Made by a program: the position numbers and the translations under genes. The notes under the pieces were generated by a model. That model was not told the origin of the DNA and did no database searches. It worked only from the letters and a program-made list of their open reading frames with translations. A DNA stretch of 17,155 nucleotides from Hydrogenophaga sp. Its GTDB lineage: Bacteria; Pseudomonadota; Gammaproteobacteria; Burkholderiales; Burkholderiaceae_C. This document shows positions 1 to 16,914 of this stretch, in pieces (the stretch's first letter is position 1; each line of letters begins with the position of its first letter). The stretch spans positions 1 to 17,155 of the forward strand of contig JAUXXN010000612.1 of NCBI GenBank assembly GCA_030684755.1, read 5' to 3'.

Positions 1-3000
1 ATGGCAAACGCGGGCAGGTGGCCAATGTGGAACGGCCGCCAAAACCCGCGCACCGCATCGCCACCCGCCGGGATGGCGGGGTGGATTCGGGGTGCGTGAT
101 CGTGCCCATCGTTCCAGCGCCACTGGTAGGCCAATGTGGCCTCAAAGCCGTTGAGAAAAGTGGGGTCGGTCTCGGGGCTGGTGCTTCCGTTCCAGTTGTC
201 GACGTATTCGTGGTCATCTACCACGGTATAGGTGGGTAGGCGGGCCAAAAGTGCTCGGGTGTGCGGGCCGCCCCAGGCATCGCGGTAGGACTGGGCCAAG
301 CGTTCGTCGCCTTCTTGCACATCATACTGGTTGGCGGTGGCGTCGGCGTAAATCTGATCGCCCAGCAGCACGAGTGCCTGCACAGGTCGTGCGGGGTGGT
401 GGATGTGTTCTTGCATGTGCAGGGCCAGACCGTCAACGGCGTTGCGCTCGAAGGGCAAGCCAGGCCAGCGGCACGAACTGGCCAGCCAACTGATGGAAGG
501 TTGCGCAGAGCCCGACGCATTGAGCAACATGTGTCCGCTGTGCCAGCGGTGCCACCAAGGCAACCGGGACAGGTTCAGCGGGACTGCAGCCTGTGGCCAG
601 CCCCACACCAGCTCCAGCGCAGGCAGCCGCGCAAAAGGCAGCTTCTCGGTTTCGCGCAACCGCAGCACCCAGTAGCTGCCCGCACCTTCAAGCAGTGTTG
701 CTCGGCTGGCAACGGCTGGCCGTGGCTGGACCTGTGCATCGGCGCCACCGGTGGGGTGAATGGCCTGCAACTGGGTAACCTGCAGACCAGGCAGGTCATC
801 AGCCCCGCTCTCATCGGCACAAACCAACCGGGGCGGGTGGGCGGCCAGCCAGGGATCGTTGGGCAGTTCAACCCACACCACCAGTTCGCGCTGGCCTTGA
901 ACGCCCCAAGGGTCGGTCTGCCCATCGGCGGACGGTAAGCGGTTGAGCTGAAGCATGGGGCCGGTCAGCGGCTGGCGCTGCACGCTGGCCGAATGGTCTT
1001 GCCAGTGCCGGGGAATGCGTTGGTGGCTGGCCTCGGCCTCTGCGCTGCTCACGCTCCAGGTACTGTCAAAGCGGGCCGGATCGTCCATGAAACGCACCAG
1101 CGACGGATAAACATCGCGGTGGGCATCTTTGCCAAACAAAAAGTCCATGTGCCCATAGCCCTCGGGCATAAAAAGGCCCACTTGGCGCTGCGCCGGTTGA
1201 GGCTGCTCGGATTGAAGACGGCTGAGCTGCAACCACGAGCGCACCGCACTGCGGGGGTCGAACACGCGGTTTTGTGTGCCGTGGGCAAACAGCACCGGAA
1301 ACGACCAGTGGGCCTGGAAATTGGCCCGTGTCATGTAAACGCCTGCACCCTCACGGTCGGTCAGGCGCTGCCGAGTGATGATGTAGTACAGCTGACGGAA
1401 CACCTCGACACTGGCCGGCCCCACCAGCGTAGCCAGTTGGCGATGGGTGGCATCGGCCAGGTTGGCGTGCACCCATTCGCGGCCATAGAACAGCGTCATG
1501 CGGTTGCAGGTGGCGGTGCCGCCTTCGGGGTCTACCACATGGGCCAGGTGGGCGGCCTGTTCGGCTTGCGGCCAGGGCAGGCTGGCGGCCAGGCGGTCAA
1601 TGAGCTGGTCGATGGCCGCAGGTTTGCGTGGCGGCACAGGGTCGATGGCCAGATCGGCGGGCAGCCAGTCGCGGTAGAGCGCAGCCAGCTCGCCCGAGAG
1701 CTGGTTGGACACCGAGGGCACCACCCACGGATGGACGGCGTGGATGATGGCGGCCTTGACCCGGCTTTGGCCTGGACTCTCTTGCAGCCAGCCCCGCAAG
1801 GTGGCCATGGCAAATGCACCACCGCCCACACAGTGGGCCAGCACCCGGATGGGCTGGCCCGCTGTGCGGTACACATGGGCCACGGCAGCGGGAATGTCGA
1901 GCTGGGCCAGATCGTCCATGCTGTGCTGCTGTTTGGCATAACCCAGGCGGTTGGACAGGCGGTGGTCCAGCAGCCACACGGTGTAGCCTTGGGCCAGGAA
2001 GGCGGCGGCCATGTTGCGCCCGCCGGTGGTGTCGGTGCTGAACACGGTGGCCCCGTGCGCCAGGCCGTGGATCATCAGCAGGTGGCGGGCCGGGTCGCTG
2101 CCCTGCGCCGGGGTGTAGCGGGTGAGTTCCAGCGACAGGGTTTCGGCAGAAGCACCGCCCGCCTGTGCAAAAGGTGCATACCGGGGCACAGGCAACTTGG
2201 TCACCTCGGGTTGACAGGCTGGCCCCGGAAGAGTGGGGTACAGCGGGCCGTGCTTGGCAGGTGCACCGGTCTGCAAGCGGTCGTAGTCTTGCCCGCGCAG
2301 GCTCCAGAAATGGGTCTGAAACAGGGCACGCAGCCACAGACTGCCAAAACTGGCCAACCCGATGATGGCCGCCGGGGTATCGGGCGCGCTGGCCACTTGT
2401 AGCCGCTGGCGTCGCACCATGTCGATCAGGTCGACATTCAGCGCCAGCACCGCCGGGGGGTGGCCACTGCCGGGGGTCAGGTGCAAGTCGATACTGACCA
2501 GCGCTTCCCACGGGGTTTTTTGGAATGGTGCATAGGCCAGGCGTTTTTGCCCAGCGGCCTGCACCGGCGGTACGCCAGCGGTGGCGGCCTGGAGTTCAAA
2601 CGCGTAATTCAGGGTGCGGTACTGGGCGTGGTTGCCCGCTGCACGCCACAGGGCTTGTATTTTCTGGAACAGGTTTTTTTTGCTTTTGGTCGATTGGAAA
2701 TCGCTGAGCGGGCGGCGGGCTGCAAAGGTGGCCAGCGCCGCCAGCCTGCGCACCACGCCAGTCGGTCCGTCCGCAGGATCGCTGGCCAGCAGGGACACCC
2801 AGCCGGCGCCTTCCAGCCAAGGCTGGCCCTGGGTCAGTTCGGGGCGGATGGTGAGGTCGTGGGGAGTGGGGTTGTGGAAGATGCGCATGCGCGCGCCCTC
2901 CAGCCGCATGGAGGGGTTGCCCAGCCATTGGTCGAGGTTCAGATCGACATCCACCGCCACCACCCACTCGCGCAAGCGCTCGTCGTCGGTCCACTGCGGG

Positions 3001-5033
3001 TTGGCCGCCGGTGCCCAGTGTGGGCGCTCGGCTTGCCAGTGGCCTTGCAGGTGCTCCCTGAATTGCAGGCGCACCGGCTGTTCGACTGCAGCAGGCGGCC
3101 TTCCTACGCGGGCCTGTGCAACGGGTGCAGGCTCAAGCAAAGGCTCCACGGGCAAAGGCACCACGGGAGCGGGTCGGGCACGGGCTGCGTCTTGCGCATC
3201 CAACTGCTGGCGCATGGCGCGGGCGGCCACCAGGCTGAGGCCAGCAATGGTGACAAAGGGATTGACCCCGACTGCCGTGGGCAGCATGCCACCGTCCAAC
3301 ACATGCAGGCCTTCATACAGCGGGTTTCCCTGCCCGCCGTCGGCCCTGAACACCGTGCCCTGCCAGTTCACCGCGCCGTTGTCCGGACCATCTCCCATGG
3401 GGCAACCACCCAGCGGATGCACGGTCAAGCCCAGGGGGTTATCGACCCCGGCGGCCACGCCTTCGAAGTCATCGGGCAGTGGTTTCCACAACGGGCTGGG
3501 CAAGTAATCACCGCCCTGGAAACCACCTCGCTCACTGGCTTTGATCAGCCAGTCGTGAACGGCCTGGTAATAGGCGGAGCGGGGGCCGCTTTTTGGACCC
3601 GACCAGGTGATGTCCAGCGCATCGCGCCGGGCGGCGCCGTGGGCATCAGGCTGGCCCGGTTTGAAGCGGATGCGGCCATCGGCATCGTCCGGTCCCATGA
3701 CCAGCATCAGCAGGGCGTGCCTGTCAATATCGGGTGGGGTGGACAGCGGGTCGATGGATTCACCAGCAGCCTTGCGACTGGCATGGTAGTCCTGCAAACC
3801 ACTGCGGGTGTAGCGGTGGGGCAACGACAAAGTAGCACCCAGTGCCACCACCGCCTGCGTCAAGGCAGAAGGCACTGCGCCATCTTCCACCAACACCCGA
3901 CGCTGCTGTCCATCCACTTGCAAACTGGGTGCGAGCCGTCCAGTGATGGTGGGGCCAACGCGCTCGTTGGGTGCTTGCTCAGCTTCGTCGGCACGGGCCA
4001 TGCCGTTCACACGAACCCCCATGCCCCAGCCCAAAGCCAGCACGTCGCCATTGGTGGAAAACCGCTGGCCCAAACAAGGGGACAGCTTCAATGCACTGGA
4101 GCGTTGCAGAATTTCGGTGCTGCCCAGCGCGCCGGCAGACAGCACCACCGAGCGTGCCCGAACTTCCATCACTTGGCGTTCGCCAGTGGATGACAGATCG
4201 GCTGTCATGGCCATGCGCACGAGCCAGAGGTAAGGGGGCCCGCCATCGTCGGCCTTTGCATCCATGCCCTCGCAGGGGCGAATATCGAGCACTGTCAAGC
4301 CGGTGATCAGCTCGGCACCTGCACGAACGGCATCGGGCAGCACGTGCGTGAGCAAGGTATTTTTGGCGCCCACGTTGCAACCGGTGAAGCAGTTGCCACA
4401 GCGTGTACAAGCGGCCTGGGCCACGCCAGCGGTGCTGATTTGGTCTTCGCTGGCCACCGTGATGGGAACCGCCTCGGCCACTTCGCCCAACGACTGGCCC
4501 AGCGCCGACAGTGCCTGGTATTTGCGCAGTTCACTGGCTTGGGCAAACGGCCGGGCTTGAAGCACGGATTGCACTTCCTGCATGGCTTGCCAAAGTGCGT
4601 CTCGGTGTGCGGCGTGGTGGCGGTAGTGGGTCGGCCAGTGCGGGTTTTGGAGCAACGTCGGTTCGGGCAAAACAGCCACTCCCGCGTTGATCAACGAGCC
4701 GCCGCCCAAGCCGTTTCCGACAAGCACGGTCACATCGGTGTATTGACGGAAATCGAGCAATCCATCAGCATTACCTGTACCGTGCGAGTCAGCACCTTTC
4801 TGGAATCGGACATGGCCTGGCAAAGACCCGATACTTTCAGGAAAGCTGCCGAGAGCAAACTCCCGCCCTCGCTCCAGCAACCAGACCCGCCGCCCGGGCT
4901 TGGCCAATGTTTTGGCGGCAAAACTGCCGCCGTAGCCCGACCCGACAATCAGAACATCACAACTCGGGGCCTCATGGTGGTCGTGCCACCATGTTTGGGC
5001 AGAACGGGACCATGCCATGGCTTTTTCAGTCAT
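1..5033 (-). CDS. GMC oxidoreductase / alpha-beta hydrolase / PhoD-like phosphatase fusion (3' end outside window)
   Basis: One frame runs from ATG 5033 to the left edge without a stop (about 1,677 codons). An SD-like AGGGAGA lies at 5042-5048, 8 nt upstream. Domain 1 (about residues 20-610) is a GMC/cholesterol-oxidase-type flavoprotein: FAD motif VGSGYGG at 30-36, C-terminal HPLGGCPMG with His539, and the NPF Asn591, matching the His/Asn active-site pair of cholesterol oxidases. It also carries a CxxCxxCxxxC cluster (209, 212, 215, 219). A Pro/Ala-rich linker follows (about 615-645). Domain 2 (about 930-1330) is an alpha/beta hydrolase: oxyanion-type MIHG at His989, nucleophile elbow AHCVGG with Cys1068 in place of Ser, and GYGHMDF with His1295. 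Domain 3 (from about 1510) is PhoD-like: SCRWPG at Cys1521, LGDQIYAD with Asp1559, and [12 protein letters not shown] with Asp1606-Asp1607-His1608. There is no signal peptide, so it may be cytoplasmic. The substrate is unknown; a sterol, polyprenoid or other bulky lipid alcohol/ester is my inference. Codons around 2640-2700 and 3180-3200 were checked and stay in frame. Confidence 0.88.
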
Positions 5034-5069: not shown

Positions 5070-7232
5070 ATGCGCATCCACACGGCCTGGGGATTTTTGC
5101 CTCACCACACCACCAACACCGTAGCAGTGGGTACGGCCCGCGCCTCTCTGGAGCTGCGAGCGGGTCAGTCGATTGCCTCCAAATGGGTGATCTGGGCGGT
5201 GTGTGCGGTCACAGTATTCGTCCTGCCCGCCGATTTGCCCCTGTGGGTTCGCCTGTGTTGGGCTCTACCCGTGATGGGCATGGCCGAAGTCAATTGGCGG
5301 GTTTGCACGCACGTCATGGACGGTCTGGCACAGGCCAGCACCCAGGGCTTGCGGGTTCGGCAAATCTGGCTTTGGTGGATGACCGCCATCAACCAGGCCC
5401 TGATGGGCAGCACGGTGTGGTGGTTTGGTTACAGCGGCGACCTGACACTGGCTGCCGTGGGCACATCGCTGCAACTGATTTACCTGAGCGCGGCCATGAT
5501 CAATGCGGCCACCCACCCCACCACTTTCGTCAGCGGAGCCTGGATCAACCTGAGCTTGGCCATTCTTTACTGGGCAACGCACAGCTTGGTCAGCATTCCG
5601 TTGGTGCTGGCTTTGGCGGGCATGGGGCTGGTGTTGTCGCGTTTGTCGGTGCAAATGGCTCACAGCTTCGAAGAATCGATCGGCATGCGTTATGAAAATC
5701 AACGCCTGTTGGCCAAGCTGGAAGAAGAAAAGCAAGTGGCCACCGAGGCCACCCGATTCAAGTCGCAATTTCTGTCCAACATCAGCCATGAAATCCGCAC
5801 CCCCATCAGCGCCATCACCAGCATGAGCTACTTGGTGCTGAAGTCGGAACTGACGGCCAAGCAGCGCAAATACGTGGAAATGATCGACCAGTGCAGCCTG
5901 CACCTGCGCAAGCTCATCAACCAGGTCTTGGATCTCTCAAAAATGGATGCGGGAATGCTCCAGCTGGAACACAGAGAGTTCCGTCTGTCCCAGGCCCTCG
6001 ACAACGTATTGACCATGAACGAGGACGCGGCCACAGCCAAAGATATCGCGCTGAGCCTGCATGTGAAGCCGGGCACCCCTGAGCGTTTGTTGGGCGACGA
6101 ACTGCGCCTAACCGAGGTGCTGCTGAACTTTGTCAGCAATGCCATCAAGTTCACCGAACAAGGCAGTGTGCGTTTGGAAATTGCCCTCGTTGAACAAACA
6201 ACGGAGCGGGTACAACTCAAGTTCTCGGTACAAGACACCGGTATCGGGATTGAACCCGAACACTTTGACGCCCTTTTCAAAAGCTTCTCCCAGGCCGATT
6301 CATCCACTTCGCGCAAATACGGTGGCACCGGATTGGGCTTGGCCATTGCGAAAACGCTGGCCGAAATGATGGGTGGTGAGGTAGGTGTTCAAAGCGAACC
6401 TCGGGTGGGTTCTGTGTTTTGGTGCACGGCCTGGTTCGGTCGGCCAGAAACTGTTGCGGCTGATCTGGACAATGAGCCAATACCGTTGGATATACCGATC
6501 TGGCCCAGACTCGCCCAGCCCGATGCACCCGATCCTGCCATACCCCAGGCCCTCAGCGCTGCGCTGCCACGGCCAAACGATGACAGCCCAGAGGCTCTGC
6601 TGGGCCACCGCTTGGCTTGGCTGTCTGCCAACGACGACCCGGCGGCTGTTGATCTGATCGCCACCTACGCCGCCGAACTGAAAAACCGCCTGGGCGGTTC
6701 GTTTGAACGCATTCAGACAGCCTTGCGCCAGTACGACTTGCCCAAAGCCTACCGGCTTCTGGAGGCCATGGGTTACACCGATCCAGCCACCCTGGCACCC
6801 ACCCAAAAAACCGCTGGAGACCTTGCTTCCAGCATCTTGGTGGTGGACGACACACCCACCAACTTGGCTCTGATGTTTGACCTGCTCAAAGACGAATACC
6901 AGGTGCGGGTAGCCTCCAACGGAGAACGGGCTCTGGCGATTGCTTCAGGCTCTAACCCCCCCGATCTGATTCTGCTGGATGTGATGATGCCCGGCATGGA
7001 CGGCTTCGCCACCCTCACCCAGCTCCAGGCCAACCCTGCCAGCGCCCACATTCCTGTGGTTTTCTTGACGGCCAAAAACCAAATTGAGGACGAAGAAAAA
7101 GGCTTGCGCCTGGGCGCACTCGACTACATCACCAAGCCTGTCAATCCACCCATTGTTTTGCGACGCGTGCGTACCCAACTCATGCTCAAAAAAGCACACG
7201 ACTTTTTGCAAGACAAAGCCAACAACCTTTAA
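5070..7232 (+). CDS. Membrane-bound hybrid sensor histidine kinase
   Basis: This 720-aa protein autophosphorylates on His and has its own receiver. Six hydrophobic segments (roughly residues 38-54, 56-72, 99-119, 125-146, 153-170, 174-191) form an uncharacterised membrane sensor with short loops. A helical stretch (200-228) leads to the HisKA H-box [10 protein letters not shown] with His240. The HATPase has an N-box at Asn357, DTGIGI at Asp389 and GTGLGLAI. A roughly 130-residue helical linker follows, then a C-terminal receiver with LLLD-type phosphoacceptor Asp637 and TKP Lys689. There is no separate HPt domain. ATG 5070 was chosen because the frame upstream lies on top of the divergent gene; no good SD precedes it, and GTG 5127 is an alternative. 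It probably works with the response regulator 248 bp downstream. The stimulus is unknown. Confidence 0.93.
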
Positions 7233-7480
7233 CAAGCCGTGCCGTGGAGAACTACAAACAACAAGCCTACGCAACGGGTCACAGCGATGGTCAGGGCTGC
7301 TCCACCCCCTCCCTGTGCGTCTGGTTAGTGTGTTGACCGGTTGATAAACAGGTCGCGCGTCTGGTCGCGCCGTTCCACCGCTTGTGGCTTTTTGTCGATT
7401 CGAAACATCCAGACTGCAATGTCAGAACATAGAACCCTGTTGCGTCAGTTTGACGAACGTCTTGTTTTTTAAACTGAACC
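7233..7480. promoter_or_regulatory. Gene-free region upstream of the response regulator
   Basis: This 248-bp gap holds no supported gene. It contains a direct repeat GGTCGCGC (7351-7358 and 7363-7370, 12-bp period) and the inverted repeat CGTCA-GTT-TGACG at 7443-7455, about 25 bp before the start codon. A TTGACC at 7333 and TTGACG at 7450 resemble -35 boxes but lack good -10 partners. These are possible operator sites; the gap suggests the response regulator can be transcribed separately from the kinase. Confidence 0.3.
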
Positions 7481-12814: not shown

Positions 12815-13783
12815 TCACTCCGTCCCGGCAGTCGCCACCCGGTTGCGACCGGCGCGTTTGGCGCGGTACAAGGCTGCGTCCACCCGCTCAACCAGGCGGT
12901 AGATAGCCTCAGATGGATTGGTTATGCCGGGTTCCAGTTCCGCGACACCCAGGCTGACAGTCACAGGAGAAGACAGCGGCGGTACCGTGGTGGTGGCGGA
13001 CAAGGCACGTATGCGCTCAGCCCATTCGGTGGCACTGGCCAGCCCGGTGTCGGGCATCAGCACCAGAAATTCTTCGCCACCAAAGCGGGCCACCACATCG
13101 CTGGCACGGGTGTTTTGGCGCAGTTGGGCACCAAAAGCGGCCAACACCGCGTCACCGGCCTGGTGACCATGGGTGTCGTTAACGGCCTTGAAGTGATCGA
13201 GGTCTGCCATCACGACCGACAGTGGCAGCCCGGTTTGCAAAGCACGGGTCACCTCTCTTTGCAAGGCGGCGTCAAGGTAGCGCCGGTTGCCCACGCCAGT
13301 CAGGGCATCGCTCTGTGACTGAGACACCACCTCAGCCTCGCGGCGGCGCAAATGTTTGTTGGTTACAGCCAAGGCTTGCTGGGTGAGTTGGTATTTCTCG
13401 TTGATGTCCAGCAAAACGGCACTCAGCCGCTCCAGATCTTCAATGTTGTGTTCGGCCAGCCACTGAAAGCGGCCCTGCACGCAACGCCAGTGGCCACGCA
13501 GGCTGCATGTGGTCCCGTTGGTGTCGCCCACCGTGAACAGGCCGGTGTAATCACCCGCAATCAACGTCTGAAATTTGGGTTGCACAAAAAACCGACCCAC
13601 AGGCTGGCCCATGAACTGCGTTCCAGGCGCGGGCAGCAGGTGCAAAAACCCCGCATTGGCCGCCAGCAGCACACCCTCTGCATCCAGCTCGGCGGCGGCC
13701 ACAGCCAACAACTTGTCCAGCACCGGGGGATACCAGGGCGCGGAACCTGCATCTGGCATGTGCTGGGGCAACTCAGAGGCCAT
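12815..13783 (-). CDS. PAS-like/GGDEF diguanylate cyclase
   Basis: This 322-aa protein should make c-di-GMP from GTP. The N-terminal 120 residues look like a PAS-type sensor fold, followed by a helical linker (about 125-155) and a GGDEF domain from about 158. That domain starts with DALTGVGNRR, contains ADLDHFKAVNDTHGH for metal and substrate binding, and has an intact active loop GGEEF at 235-239. An RxxD inhibitory site (Arg226-Asp229) lies exactly five residues before it, so product feedback is expected. No TM segment is seen, so it is probably cytoplasmic. Its ATG lies 11 nt inside the end of the B12-domain gene, which suggests coupled translation and a shared signal. Confidence 0.93.
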   Translation of the reverse strand: MASELPQHMPDAGSAPWYPPVLDKLLAVAAAELDAEGVLLAANAGFLHLLPAPGTQFMGQPVGRFFVQPKFQTLIAGDYTGLFTVGDTNGTTCSLRGHWRCVQGRFQWLAEHNIEDLERLSAVLLDINEKYQLTQQALAVTNKHLRRREAEVVSQSQSDALTGVGNRRYLDAALQREVTRALQTGLPLSVVMADLDHFKAVNDTHGHQAGDAVLAAFGAQLRQNTRASDVVARFGGEEFLVLMPDTGLASATEWAERIRALSATTTVPPLSSPVTVSLGVAELEPGITNPSEAIYRLVERVDAALYRAKRAGRNRVATAGTE

Positions 13784-14858
13784 GGGTCGGCGGTTGTTTC
13801 AGCAACTGTTGCGCCACATCCACGGCATCCAGTGCCGAAGCGGCGTGCCCCTCTGCGCCCAGCACGCCCGCCAGTGGCTGAAAACGGTTGACAGCCAAAC
13901 CGCCCACCAGCACGGGAGGTCGGGTATCGGGCAAGCGCTCGTTAAGCTGCGCAAGGATGTCACGCACCGTGCCGAGTTGCTGCGGGAACGACACCGACAA
14001 CCCCAGCAAATCGGGCTGTTCTGTGGTCACCATGTCCACCAGCGCACGGGTGGGCACATTGGCACCGAGGTAGGTCACGTCCCAGCCCTGCACCTCAAAA
14101 GCATCGGCCACCATGCGCAACCCCAGTGCGTGGTGGTTGCCCTCCACGCAGGCCAAGATGATGTGGTGTCCATTGGGCGGTGGCAGGCTTTGCTGCTCCA
14201 GGCTGGCTGTGATCACGGCATGGGCAATGGCGGTGGCCATGTGCTCTTGCGCCACGCTCACGCGGTTGGCCTGCCAGCCATCGCCAATGCGCACCATGGC
14301 GGGCTGCACCACATGGGCCTCGATGCTGACCAGGCTGTGCCCCTGCGCCAGACAGCGTTGCACCACCTGCTGTGCTTCGTTGCGATTTCCGCGCAGCAAG
14401 GCGTGCTCAAACTCACACACCTCGGGCCAGGCGGCTGCGGTGGGTGTGTCGGGCTGCGCAGGGCTGGCGGGCATCTGCTCGGCCTGCGCCAGCGCCTGCA
14501 ACACCCCATCCATCGCCGCCTGCACGGCGGCGGCATCGGGTGCGTCCAGGTGATCGGCGTAAAAATCGCCCAGCCAACGCAGCGACTGCGCCAGGTGGCC
14601 CGATGGGATGCCGCGTGCGTCCAACACCTCGCGCAGCCAAACCAGGTAGCTGACCATCGGTTGAACCAGACCAAACTCCAGCACAGGACGCAAAAATTCG
14701 ATGTGAAACCCGAGGTCTTCGCGGCAAGCCTCGCGCCCACGCGGCCCCCACTGTTGGTACACCGTGCCGTGGGTGGCATAAAACCGCTCGGTGACGCTGA
14801 CCACGGCATCGTGGCGCAGCTGCCAAAAACGTTGTAAGCCGGTGGTGGTGAGGGTCAT
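13773..14858 (-). CDS. Cobalamin-binding sensor-like protein (CarH-type B12 domains without HTH)
   Basis: This 361-aa protein has three parts. Residues 1 to about 100 are a helical region I do not recognise. About 140-215 is a B12 cap domain containing IGDGWQANRVSVAQEH: Trp195 with Glu205-His206 at the same spacing as CarH Trp131, Glu141, His142. About 220-345 is a Rossmann-like B12-binding domain with GNHHALGLRM, where His243 is the likely lower cobalt ligand, then YLGANVP and LVGGLAVN. Asn replaces Asp in the usual DxHxxG motif. There is no MerR helix-turn-helix, so it is not a direct DNA-binding CarH. ATG 14858 was chosen because earlier starts overlap the preceding gene and add unlikely sequence. 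The diguanylate cyclase overlaps its 3' end. Light or cobalamin sensing is inference. Confidence 0.88.
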   Translation of the reverse strand: MTLTTTGLQRFWQLRHDAVVSVTERFYATHGTVYQQWGPRGREACREDLGFHIEFLRPVLEFGLVQPMVSYLVWLREVLDARGIPSGHLAQSLRWLGDFYADHLDAPDAAAVQAAMDGVLQALAQAEQMPASPAQPDTPTAAAWPEVCEFEHALLRGNRNEAQQVVQRCLAQGHSLVSIEAHVVQPAMVRIGDGWQANRVSVAQEHMATAIAHAVITASLEQQSLPPPNGHHIILACVEGNHHALGLRMVADAFEVQGWDVTYLGANVPTRALVDMVTTEQPDLLGLSVSFPQQLGTVRDILAQLNERLPDTRPPVLVGGLAVNRFQPLAGVLGAEGHAASALDAVDVAQQLLKQPPTHGL

Positions 14859-14896: not shown

Positions 14897-15196
14897 TTAG
14901 GTGGCAAACACGTCCAGCAGATGCACACGGGCCGAACCGGGCACCAGCTTCAGCCCCTTGGGTATGCCCGCGTGCGACGCGTGGTATTCGTCGCTGCGGT
15001 GCCAAGCCGCATAGCTGGCCTGGTCACGCCAGCGTGTCAGCAGCCAAACTTCCTGCGCATTGTCGGTGGGGCTCATCACCTCCATGCTGACAAAGCCTGG
15101 AACCACATCCACCCGGTGCGGGCGCTGGGCAAAGGCCGTGCGCACCTCGGCGGACATGTCGTTGTCGATGGTGAAGCAACTGAGCGCGATGAACAT
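14897..15196 (-). CDS. ABM-fold (antibiotic biosynthesis monooxygenase-like) protein
   Basis: This 99-aa single-domain protein begins MFIALSCFTI and contains the ABM-type core VVPGFVSMEVMS, then VWLLTRWRDQASYAAWHRS and a trailing EYHASHAG. This matches the small dimeric ferredoxin-like fold shared by quinol monooxygenases and HmoA-like heme-degrading proteins. Its substrate cannot be told from the sequence. ATG 15196 was chosen because the beta strand begins there; a GTG at 15259 would add 21 residues. It is the first gene of the minus-strand run and is 38 nt upstream of the B12-domain gene. Confidence 0.82.
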   Translation of the reverse strand: MFIALSCFTIDNDMSAEVRTAFAQRPHRVDVVPGFVSMEVMSPTDNAQEVWLLTRWRDQASYAAWHRSDEYHASHAGIPKGLKLVPGSARVHLLDVFAT

Positions 15197-15374: not shown

Positions 15375-15409
15375 AAAAAAAACCCGCGTGCCTTGCGGCA
15401 ACGCGGGTT
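15375..15409 (-). terminator. Intrinsic terminator of glnK-amtB
   Basis: Read on the minus strand, AACCCGCG (15402-15409) pairs with CGCGGGTT (15381-15388) and is followed by a run of eight T (15375-15382 as A on the plus strand). Stem, loop and T-run make a textbook rho-independent terminator about 78 nt beyond the amtB stop. Confidence 0.88.
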
Positions 15410-15438
15410 CAACATCCAAAGGAGACACTCAGGAACTT

Positions 15439-15476
15439 GGGGGTGACAACCTGCTGTGCAGCAGGCTGTCACCCCC
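15439..15476. repeat. Long perfect hairpin just after amtB
   Basis: GGGGGTGACA (15439-15448) pairs with TGTCACCCCC (15467-15476). After one mismatch, an inner stem CCTGCT/AGCAGG closes on a GTGC loop. It begins 10 nt beyond the amtB stop codon. No T-run follows in the minus direction, so it may stabilise the mRNA 3' end or act with the terminator downstream. Confidence 0.7.
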
Positions 15477-15486
15477 GGGAAAACAC

Positions 15487-16914
15487 TTAACGGTTGTAGG
15501 CGGTTTCGCCGTGCGAGGTGATGTCCAGACCTTCGCGTTCGGCTTCTTCCGACACACGCAAACCGACCATCATGTCCACAATTTTGTAGGACACAAAGGC
15601 CACCACAGCGGACCACACCATGGTGATGACCACGCCTTCGGCCTGAATGAACAGCTGGCTGGCGATAGAGAAGTCTTCGGCGCCCGTGCCACCCAGGCCA
15701 GGTGCTGCAAACACACCGACCAACAAGGCACCCACGATACCGCCCACGCCGTGCACACCGAACACGTCCAGCGAGTCGTCGGCACCCAGCATCTTCTTCA
15801 GGCCAGACACGCCCCACAGGCACAAGAAGCCAGAGATCAGACCGATGATGATGGCGCCCATGGGGCCCACCGAACCGCAAGCCGGGGTAATGGCCACCAG
15901 ACCAGCCACAGCACCCGAAGCGGCACCCAGCATAGACGCTTTGCCCTTGCCCAGCGCTTCACCCACGCACCATGCCAGCACCGCAGCCGCTGTGGCCACC
16001 AAAGTGTTGATGAAGGCCAGCGTGGCACCGCCGTTGGCTTCGAGGTTGGAACCGGCGTTGAAACCGAACCAACCCACCCACAGCAGCGAGGCACCGACCA
16101 TGGTCAGCGTCAGGCTGTGAGGCGCCATGGATTCCTTGCCGTAACCAATGCGCTTGCCCAGCATGTAGGCACCCACCAAACCAGCCATGGCAGCGTTGAT
16201 GTGCACCACGGTGCCGCCAGCGAAGTCCAGCGCGCCTTTGTCGAGCAAGTAACCGCCCTCACCCCACACCATGTGGGCGATCGGCAGGTAGCTGAAGGTG
16301 AACCAGATGGCCGAGAACAGCAGCACAGCGCTGAACTTCATGCGTTCGGCGAACGAACCCACGATCAGGGCGCAGGTAATACCGGCAAACGTGGCCTGGA
16401 AGGCAATGAAGATGTATTCGGGAATGGCCACACCGTCGGTGAAGGTGGCTGCCAGCGAATCCACGGTCACGCCCATCAGGAACGCTTTGTCGAAATTGCC
16501 GATGATCAGTCCTGCACCGCCAAACGCCAGGCTGTAGCCGTACATGGCCCACAGCACCGTGATCAGCGAGAACACCACCATCACCTGCATCAGCACCGAC
16601 AGCATGTTTTTGCTGCGCACCAGGCCACCGTAGAACAGGGCCAGGCCAGGCACAACCATCAGGACCACCAGAATGGTGGAGATCATCATCCAGGTCACAT
16701 CGCCTTTGTCGACGGTGGGCTTGGCTTCTTCAGCGGCGGGCGCTTCGGCCGCCACAGCGGCGGCGGGCGCCTCGACAGCAGGTGCCTCTGCGGCAGCAGG
16801 AGCGGCTTCGGTGGCTACAGCCGCAGCAGGCGCATCGGCGGTCTGGGCTACGGCGTTCAGGCCGCCAAAGGCCAGGCCGACGCCCAGCAGCAGGGTTGCA
16901 AGTAGTTTTTTCAT
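15487..16914 (-). CDS. amtB: Ammonium transporter AmtB
   Basis: This 475-aa Amt/Mep/Rh-family channel brings ammonium across the inner membrane. A signal peptide (MKKLLATLLLGVGLAFGG, cleavage near AVAQ at about residue 24) is followed by an Ala/Pro/Glu-rich segment to about residue 68, then the 11-TM core. The conserved pore His pair is present: His238 in GTVVHINA and His388 in FGVHGVGG. They are exactly 150 residues apart, as in E. coli AmtB (168/318). Other hallmarks are ALFYGGLVRSKN, GSFAERMKF and WFGFNAGS. It is about 47 residues longer than E. coli AmtB owing to the N-terminal extension. It starts 31 nt after glnK and would be blocked by GlnK when nitrogen is plentiful. Confidence 0.96.
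   Translation of the reverse strand: MKKLLATLLLGVGLAFGGLNAVAQTADAPAAAVATEAAPAAAEAPAVEAPAAAVAAEAPAAEEAKPTVDKGDVTWMMISTILVVLMVVPGLALFYGGLVRSKNMLSVLMQVMVVFSLITVLWAMYGYSLAFGGAGLIIGNFDKAFLMGVTVDSLAATFTDGVAIPEYIFIAFQATFAGITCALIVGSFAERMKFSAVLLFSAIWFTFSYLPIAHMVWGEGGYLLDKGALDFAGGTVVHINAAMAGLVGAYMLGKRIGYGKESMAPHSLTLTMVGASLLWVGWFGFNAGSNLEANGGATLAFINTLVATAAAVLAWCVGEALGKGKASMLGAASGAVAGLVAITPACGSVGPMGAIIIGLISGFLCLWGVSGLKKMLGADDSLDVFGVHGVGGIVGALLVGVFAAPGLGGTGAEDFSIASQLFIQAEGVVITMVWSAVVAFVSYKIVDMMVGLRVSEEAEREGLDITSHGETAYNR

Follow-up and report, generated by a model that had tools for sequence, protein, structure and literature searches.

Three consecutive genes on the minus strand of the window (the whole 17,155-nucleotide stretch of Hydrogenophaga sp. 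DNA analysed here) encode, in this order, an ABM-fold protein, a globin-B12 photoreceptor and a PAS-GGDEF protein. We read the locus, with a probability of roughly 60%, as a three-gene photocobilin light-signalling cassette in which the ABM protein makes the bilin or hands it over. The ABM gene lies upstream of the photocobilin gene with a spacing of 38 nt, and the photocobilin gene overlaps the cyclase gene by 11 nt, an overlap that a sequence-only reading of this DNA had already pointed out; the ABM gene did not figure in that reading. The coordinates of the features are collected in Table 1.

Table 1. Features of the cassette and its upstream border, with positions in the window
Feature	Position	Strand	Residues or details	Basis
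Hairpin plus eight T, probable amtB terminator	15375..15410	-	between amtB and the cassette	fold, T run
ABM-fold protein, first cassette gene	14897..15196	-	99 aa	Pfam PF03992
Photocobilin-type photoreceptor	13773..14858	-	361 aa; globin domain first, B12 domain second	
Photoglobin (phycobiliprotein-like) domain	14475..14852	-	residues 3-128; Cys45, Asp48, Trp74	
Cys45-x-x-Asp48 codons	14715..14726	-		profile alignments to 8j2w and phycocyanin alpha
Cobalamin-binding domain	13803..14423	-	residues 146-352; GDGW195, EH205-206, GNHH243, GANVP	
His243 codon, predicted lower axial cobalt ligand	14130..14132	-		conservation; aligned to SasPcob lower-ligand region
Photocobilin/cyclase gene overlap	13773..13783	-	11 nt	
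PAS-GGDEF protein, predicted diguanylate cyclase, effector	12815..13783	-	322 aa	
PAS-like domain	13370..13726	-	residues 20-138; common to GGDEF and histidine-kinase effectors	
GGDEF domain	12839..13315	-	residues 157-315; RASD 226-229, GGEEF 235-239	

The photoreceptor matches the Pfam models B12-binding (E = 2e-19) and B12-binding_2 (E = 3e-15); these are the only two that pass their cut-offs, and no DNA-binding domain was found in the protein. The sequence-only reading, which had described a CarH-like B12 protein lacking such a domain, was accurate in this respect and in its list of pocket residues: Trp195, Val202, Glu205, His206 and His243 are all present, with the spacing that it gave relative to CarH. 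We aligned the window's protein with 29 sequences chosen among the matches listed (120 of 1245). Across these 30 sequences W195, E205, H206 and H243 do not vary, and conservation of V202 is 90% or higher; loss of His243 in homologues, which that reading had named as grounds for abandoning its proposal, was not seen in any of the 30. The window's protein contains the complete light signature of SignatureFinder, with its four elements GxxW, EH, GxxH (at the lower ligand) and GxxxP (PMC11796333). The W-(10)x-EH motif of photocobilins is also present (W195...E205-H206), while their E/DxH lower-ligand motif is replaced by N241-x-H243, in which N241 and H243 are invariant in 30/30. The top sequence and structure matches of the B12 domain are photocobilins, and the fusion of a B12 domain to a phycobiliprotein-like globin, by which photocobilins are recognised, is found here. 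Since the fold, the pocket and both domains fit although the strict E/DxH motif fails, we call the 361-aa protein a photocobilin-type variant, predicted to bind adenosylcobalamin (AdoCbl) and a bilin.

We also considered a corrinoid methyltransferase partner and rejected it, as the NCBIfam methyltransferase-corrinoid models scored far below cut-off and the gene context is that of signalling. The database names of relatives include 'methanogenic corrinoid protein MtbC1'. Within the window's own genus, 35 genomes were searched and gave 0 matches over the whole 361-aa protein; 34 of them gave partial matches, chiefly to the B12 domain, and one gave none.

The structure of the globin domain was predicted alone because a structure search with the whole model left the globin region uncovered. 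By profile alignment, Asp48 and Trp74 are the equivalents of SasPcob Asp270 and Trp296, the residues named as biliverdin contacts in the consulted part of PMC10979010. Cys45, which is Thr in SasPcob, aligns with the Cys of the phycocyanin CxRD motif (so named in the consulted part of PMC10151467). The description as a CarH-like B12 protein is therefore sound for the pocket and for the absent DNA-binding domain but incomplete, in that the protein is not a bare B12 domain and carries a second, bilin-type globin domain; a CarH-like light repressor without its DNA-binding domain, taken as the full story, is ruled out by the phycobiliprotein-like N-terminus. Among the photocobilins examined whose ABM status is clear, Asp48 is kept in 43/43 ABM-linked and 17/22 ABM-less proteins, the five losses coming from three genomes, and Trp74 is kept together with Asp48 in all 43 ABM-linked proteins.

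The effector matches the Pfam GGDEF model with E = 6e-43. Its DLDHFK stretch starts at residue 194, and the RASD I-site ends five residues before GGEEF. The GG(D/E)EF site, the metal/GTP motif and the RxxD I-site are thus all in place, as had been claimed for GGEEF and RxxD, and diguanylate cyclase activity is predicted. Pfam models recognise the PAS-like domain poorly, with a PAS_4 match in 7 of 28 members and no match to any model at 0.01 for the window's own domain. A search of 369 genomes returned the window's own domain and one marginal match (31.5 bits), a weak result because at most 11 candidates per genome were scored. The domain nevertheless recurs in the neighbours of relatives with differing outputs. 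In the best 80 of 294 relatives, a PAS-domain gene adjoins 52 of the 60 globin-bearing loci with at least 900 nt downstream (Pfam check on ten examples), with a GGDEF output in 29, a histidine kinase in 19, a short Cys-containing C-terminal region in 2 and no assigned output in 2; the sequence-only reading had advised checking whether the pair is conserved, and a PAS-domain neighbour is indeed kept in most of these loci. Because the PAS-like domain is common to such differing outputs, it is likely to be the contact surface with the photoreceptor. In the effectors of four loci (L027, L066, L069 and L143), a short, conserved C-terminal CxxC ... W ... SHG[YL]CPxC region replaces the GGDEF or kinase domain; in L027 and L069 this region has no Pfam name.

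The ABM protein scores 58.3 bits against PF03992 (cut-off 23.1) and has the IsdG-type ABM fold; the nearest NCBIfam model, HmuQ, reaches 41.8 bits, below its cut-off of 130. It resembles heme-degrading monooxygenases. Every IsdG-family enzyme whose function has been characterised is reported to need the Asn-Trp-His triad (consulted parts of PMC5557675 and PMC6018153), and the window's ABM has Ser6-Trp65-His75 at these positions. The linked ABMs scored at full length have Ser at the catalytic Asn site in 40/40, Trp65 in 40/40 and His75 in 39/40, a table that leaves out L026, L066 and, for their missing starts, L025 and L058, whereas the unlinked ABMs that we fetched have Asn, Trp and His in 26/26. 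Judged by these residues, the cassette ABMs are a diagnosable Ser-Trp-His subfamily.

The ABM gene follows the globin domain across relatives. Within the best 80 of 294 related stretches, a set biased to close relatives by that choice, an ABM gene adjoins 40 of 62 globin-bearing loci and 0 of 13 globin-less loci, that is, loci in which our own profile detected no globin domain (75 of the 80 loci, those with at least 400 nt upstream; Fisher p 1e-5, kinship ignored). Kinship may account for part of this contrast, as the relatives behind the 13 globin-less loci are more distant, and the count of 40 includes two doubtful rows, L026, which is cut up by frame, and L066, an atypical ABM that lies downstream and has the Ser but a Tyr for Trp65. 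The other 22 of the 62 globin-bearing loci in this set are without an ABM neighbour. Searching in the converse direction, we obtained an ABM match at E 1e-8 in 68 of 369 genomes of the class (69 matches) and fetched the loci for 30 of the 69. The four matches of at least 118 bits, one of which is the ABM of the window itself, are each next to a photocobilin gene, in one case in divergent orientation; after these the scores drop to 70.8 bits, and in the 26 fetched loci that rank next there is no photocobilin gene within about 1.5 kb. Mirror-tree rank correlations of 0.67-0.82 between the four domains in 34 cassettes, uncorrected for species history, fit co-inheritance of these domains.

One locus, L029 (about 5780-7270), has an apparently decayed cassette: part of the interior of the ABM frame is missing, the photoreceptor runs across two frames and the effector frame is short. 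A protein with 32-33% identity is encoded on large replicons in Azospirillum records (L173, A. thermophilum, and H1-H7). The annotated genes next to it in A. thermophilum encode a hypothetical protein and a histidine kinase, and the incomplete gene table lists no ABM within 5 kb.

A search for canonical heme oxygenase (PF01126) gave matches in 5 of 29 ABM-positive and 14 of 21 ABM-negative genomes (p 9e-4). The enzyme was undetected in the remaining 24 of the 29 ABM-positive genomes searched, mostly assemblies of unstated completeness and among them that of the window (82.6% complete), as well as in 7 of the 21 ABM-less genomes. To make up the ABM-positive set, the window's genome was joined by those belonging to 28 of the 40 loci, with L042 left out; L016 was counted as ABM-negative, L023, L048, L049, L051, L052 and L053 were omitted because their upstream regions are short or unclear, and the genome of the decayed cassette and four globin-less genomes, two of which have a heme oxygenase, were kept out of the comparison. 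A PF01126 match was present in 3 of 14 control genomes. Phytochromes (PHY) occur in 6 of 29 ABM-positive and 11 of 21 ABM-negative genomes, and in the genomes without PHY the heme oxygenase counts become 2/23 and 3/10 (p = 0.15). The contrast is confounded by phytochromes and may reflect them, which weakens the exclusion of heme oxygenase as a proof of ABM function. Three genomes (G428, G434 and G439, those of L005, L012 and L018) have PHY domains and a cassette ABM, with canonical heme oxygenase undetected; here the phytochromes might likewise draw on the ABM, or incomplete assemblies might account for the gap. Heme oxygenase beside ABM-less cassettes, as a local substitute for the ABM, was also considered and dropped, since an eight-sequence profile found it, within the 80 loci, only in three Nannocystis loci (L072, L073 and L079, about 5357-7361), where a heme oxygenase, a B12-binding protein and a globin encoded by a separate gene adjoin.

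Photochemistry and cyclase activation have been established by others in relatives of the photoreceptor, and on their model the cassette probably works as follows. The C-terminal domain would bind AdoCbl with His243 as the lower ligand, and the N-terminal globin domain would bind a bilin at Asp48. Light would cleave the Co-C bond directly or, as red light, via the bilin; the photoreceptor would then shift its assembly state and alter the contacted cyclase, probably through the PAS-like domain, and the c-di-GMP output would change. By analogy with AbDPcob and SasPcob, the AdoCbl-loaded photoreceptor would restrain the cyclase in the dark, and cyclase activity would rise in the light. The direction of this effect may be the opposite here, because SasPcob without biliverdin behaved oppositely (consulted part of PMC10979010). 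The sequence-only reading had proposed direct control of the cyclase by light or AdoCbl; protein contact is still the best reading, but we do not expect bis-His photochemistry of the CarH type, since Trp195 is followed by Gln196, as in SasPcob, where TtCarH has His132.

The ABM protein would most likely make the bilin from heme or hand it over, and we give about even odds to an enzyme and a carrier. More specifically, although we hold this version only tentatively and at less than even odds, a Ser-Trp-His ABM enzyme would convert heme to a bilin for a B12/bilin photoreceptor in place of canonical heme oxygenase, possibly attaching a new bilin to Cys45 or passing it on to that residue, and one family-specific PAS-like domain would be the plug that couples the sensor to cyclases and histidine kinases. 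If true, this would give IsdG-type bilins the part in light signalling that was at one time conjectured for them (consulted part of PMC5557675).

Alternatively, the ABM protein could be no enzyme but a carrier or sensor subunit that binds heme or a bilin and forms one complex with the other two cassette proteins; the bilin would then have another origin or be something other than biliverdin. We regard this as rather unlikely. It agrees with the replacement of the catalytic Asn by Ser in every full-length ABM scored, with Trp65 and His75 retained almost throughout, although Ser might still support chemistry. It also agrees with the fusions: in L063 the ABM is joined to GGDEF, L115/L143 (a single gene) combines it with a PAS-like stretch, and in L069 it carries another C-terminal region. 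These fusions sit on the effector, not on the photoreceptor, so that a pure supply role leaves them unexplained. With canonical heme oxygenase undetected in most ABM-positive genomes, however, a carrier-type ABM would need another bilin source. In L064, the GGDEF domain is fused to the globin-B12 protein.

That the B12 domain alone senses, with a structural globin domain and an ABM serving iron or heme metabolism alongside, seems improbable to us. Four loci in which the globin is undetected (L061, L062, L067 and L070) keep the PAS-GGDEF partner, and AbDPcob is activated by light at only about 20% biliverdin occupancy (consulted part of PMC10979010), both as this explanation would have it. But the same source gives AbDPcob a His in place of the biliverdin Asp, while the ABM-linked proteins keep Asp48 and Trp74 without exception, and the ABM tracks the globin domain in the set of 80. 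Less probable again is that the cassette senses AdoCbl or oxygen/redox, with cofactor occupancy rather than photolysis setting cyclase activity. Several cassette hosts (Nitrotoga, Denitromonas and Sedimenticola) are not known to be phototrophic, which would suit such a role. AdoCbl binding alone lowers the cyclase activity of AbDPcob relative to the apo form, which also favours occupancy sensing, but the two characterised relatives are light-driven (both in the consulted part of PMC10979010) and the light signature of the window's protein is complete.

The photocobilins form one of the newest families of photoreceptors. Where they obtain their bilin and how the stand-alone ones find their partners are questions for which the cassette offers natural test objects, namely the small ABM neighbour, the PAS-bearing cyclase that belongs to this sensor, and related cassettes in which a sensor of this kind adjoins a histidine kinase. 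Should the ABM indeed make the bilin, photoreceptor pigments would have a new biosynthetic route, and optogenetics a compact green/red module. The photoglobins of Schneider et al. 2022 are said to join a globin to a B12-binding light-sensor domain and signalling domains, and the cassette shares the globin, the light-sensor domain and the signalling output. The photoglobin motif is CXQD in the consulted part of PMC10151467, and the cassette proteins mostly have CR(E/Q)D.

The sensor type and the in trans control of a cyclase are already published, and the earlier description of the arrangement as little-described has to be withdrawn: Zhang et al. 2024 (PMC10979010, in the part consulted) show that photocobilins activate a diguanylate cyclase in light, both in cis and in trans, and also mention in trans regulation and photocobilin groups with the B12 domain at either end. 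As described there, SasPcob and AbDPcob (PDB 8J2W, 8J2X and 8J2Y) share with the window's protein the four-helix plus Rossmann B12 domain, the phycobilisome-like globin domain, W-10x-EH, the lower His, the Asp270/Trp296 equivalents and the diguanylate cyclase output. In the window the domain order is reversed, the cyclase is encoded separately and brings a PAS-like domain of its own, the phycobilin-attachment site holds Cys45, N-x-H stands in place of E/DxH, and an ABM gene adjoins. CarH shares the B12 fold and the adenosyl pocket (W, V, E, H and the lower H), although it has the MerR-type DNA-binding domain that the window's protein lacks. The IsdG-type heme oxygenases (IsdG, MhuD, HmoB and HmuQ) share the ABM fold and the Trp and His of the triad, with the Asn as the difference. 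In the BBAG-2/pre-PcyA three-gene cluster and the Myxococcales globin-B12 loci, pre-PcyA and in part heme oxygenase accompany a globin and a B12-binding protein (consulted part of PMC10151467). The three Nannocystis loci resemble these in their adjacent heme oxygenase, whereas in the window the ABM stands in for the bilin-synthesis genes, and globin and B12 domains are fused. The literature searched, which did not cover Schneider et al. 2022, yielded no paper that connects ABM proteins with photoglobins or B12 photoreceptors; within that scope, the ABM-photocobilin-PAS effector cassette, the Ser-Trp-His ABMs and their tie to the globin domain appear to be new.

The hairpin with eight T between amtB and the cassette suggests that the ABM, photocobilin and cyclase genes probably form a transcription unit of their own. 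The stretch 15380-15490 as a whole has a fold z of -7.7. A mechanical terminator scan, which gave 5 sites where 3.6 are expected, does not list this hairpin, and a sigma-70 scan found no consensus promoter site. Directly after the amtB stop and beside the probable terminator, there is another hairpin of 17 pairs, one of them G-U (15439-15476). On the plus strand, upstream of a hybrid kinase/LuxR regulator pair, two open frames of 469 and 577 aa (993-2402 and 2460-4193) have no Pfam match at 0.01 and are candidate genes only. The window's genome also contains a fragment of an adenosyltransferase gene.
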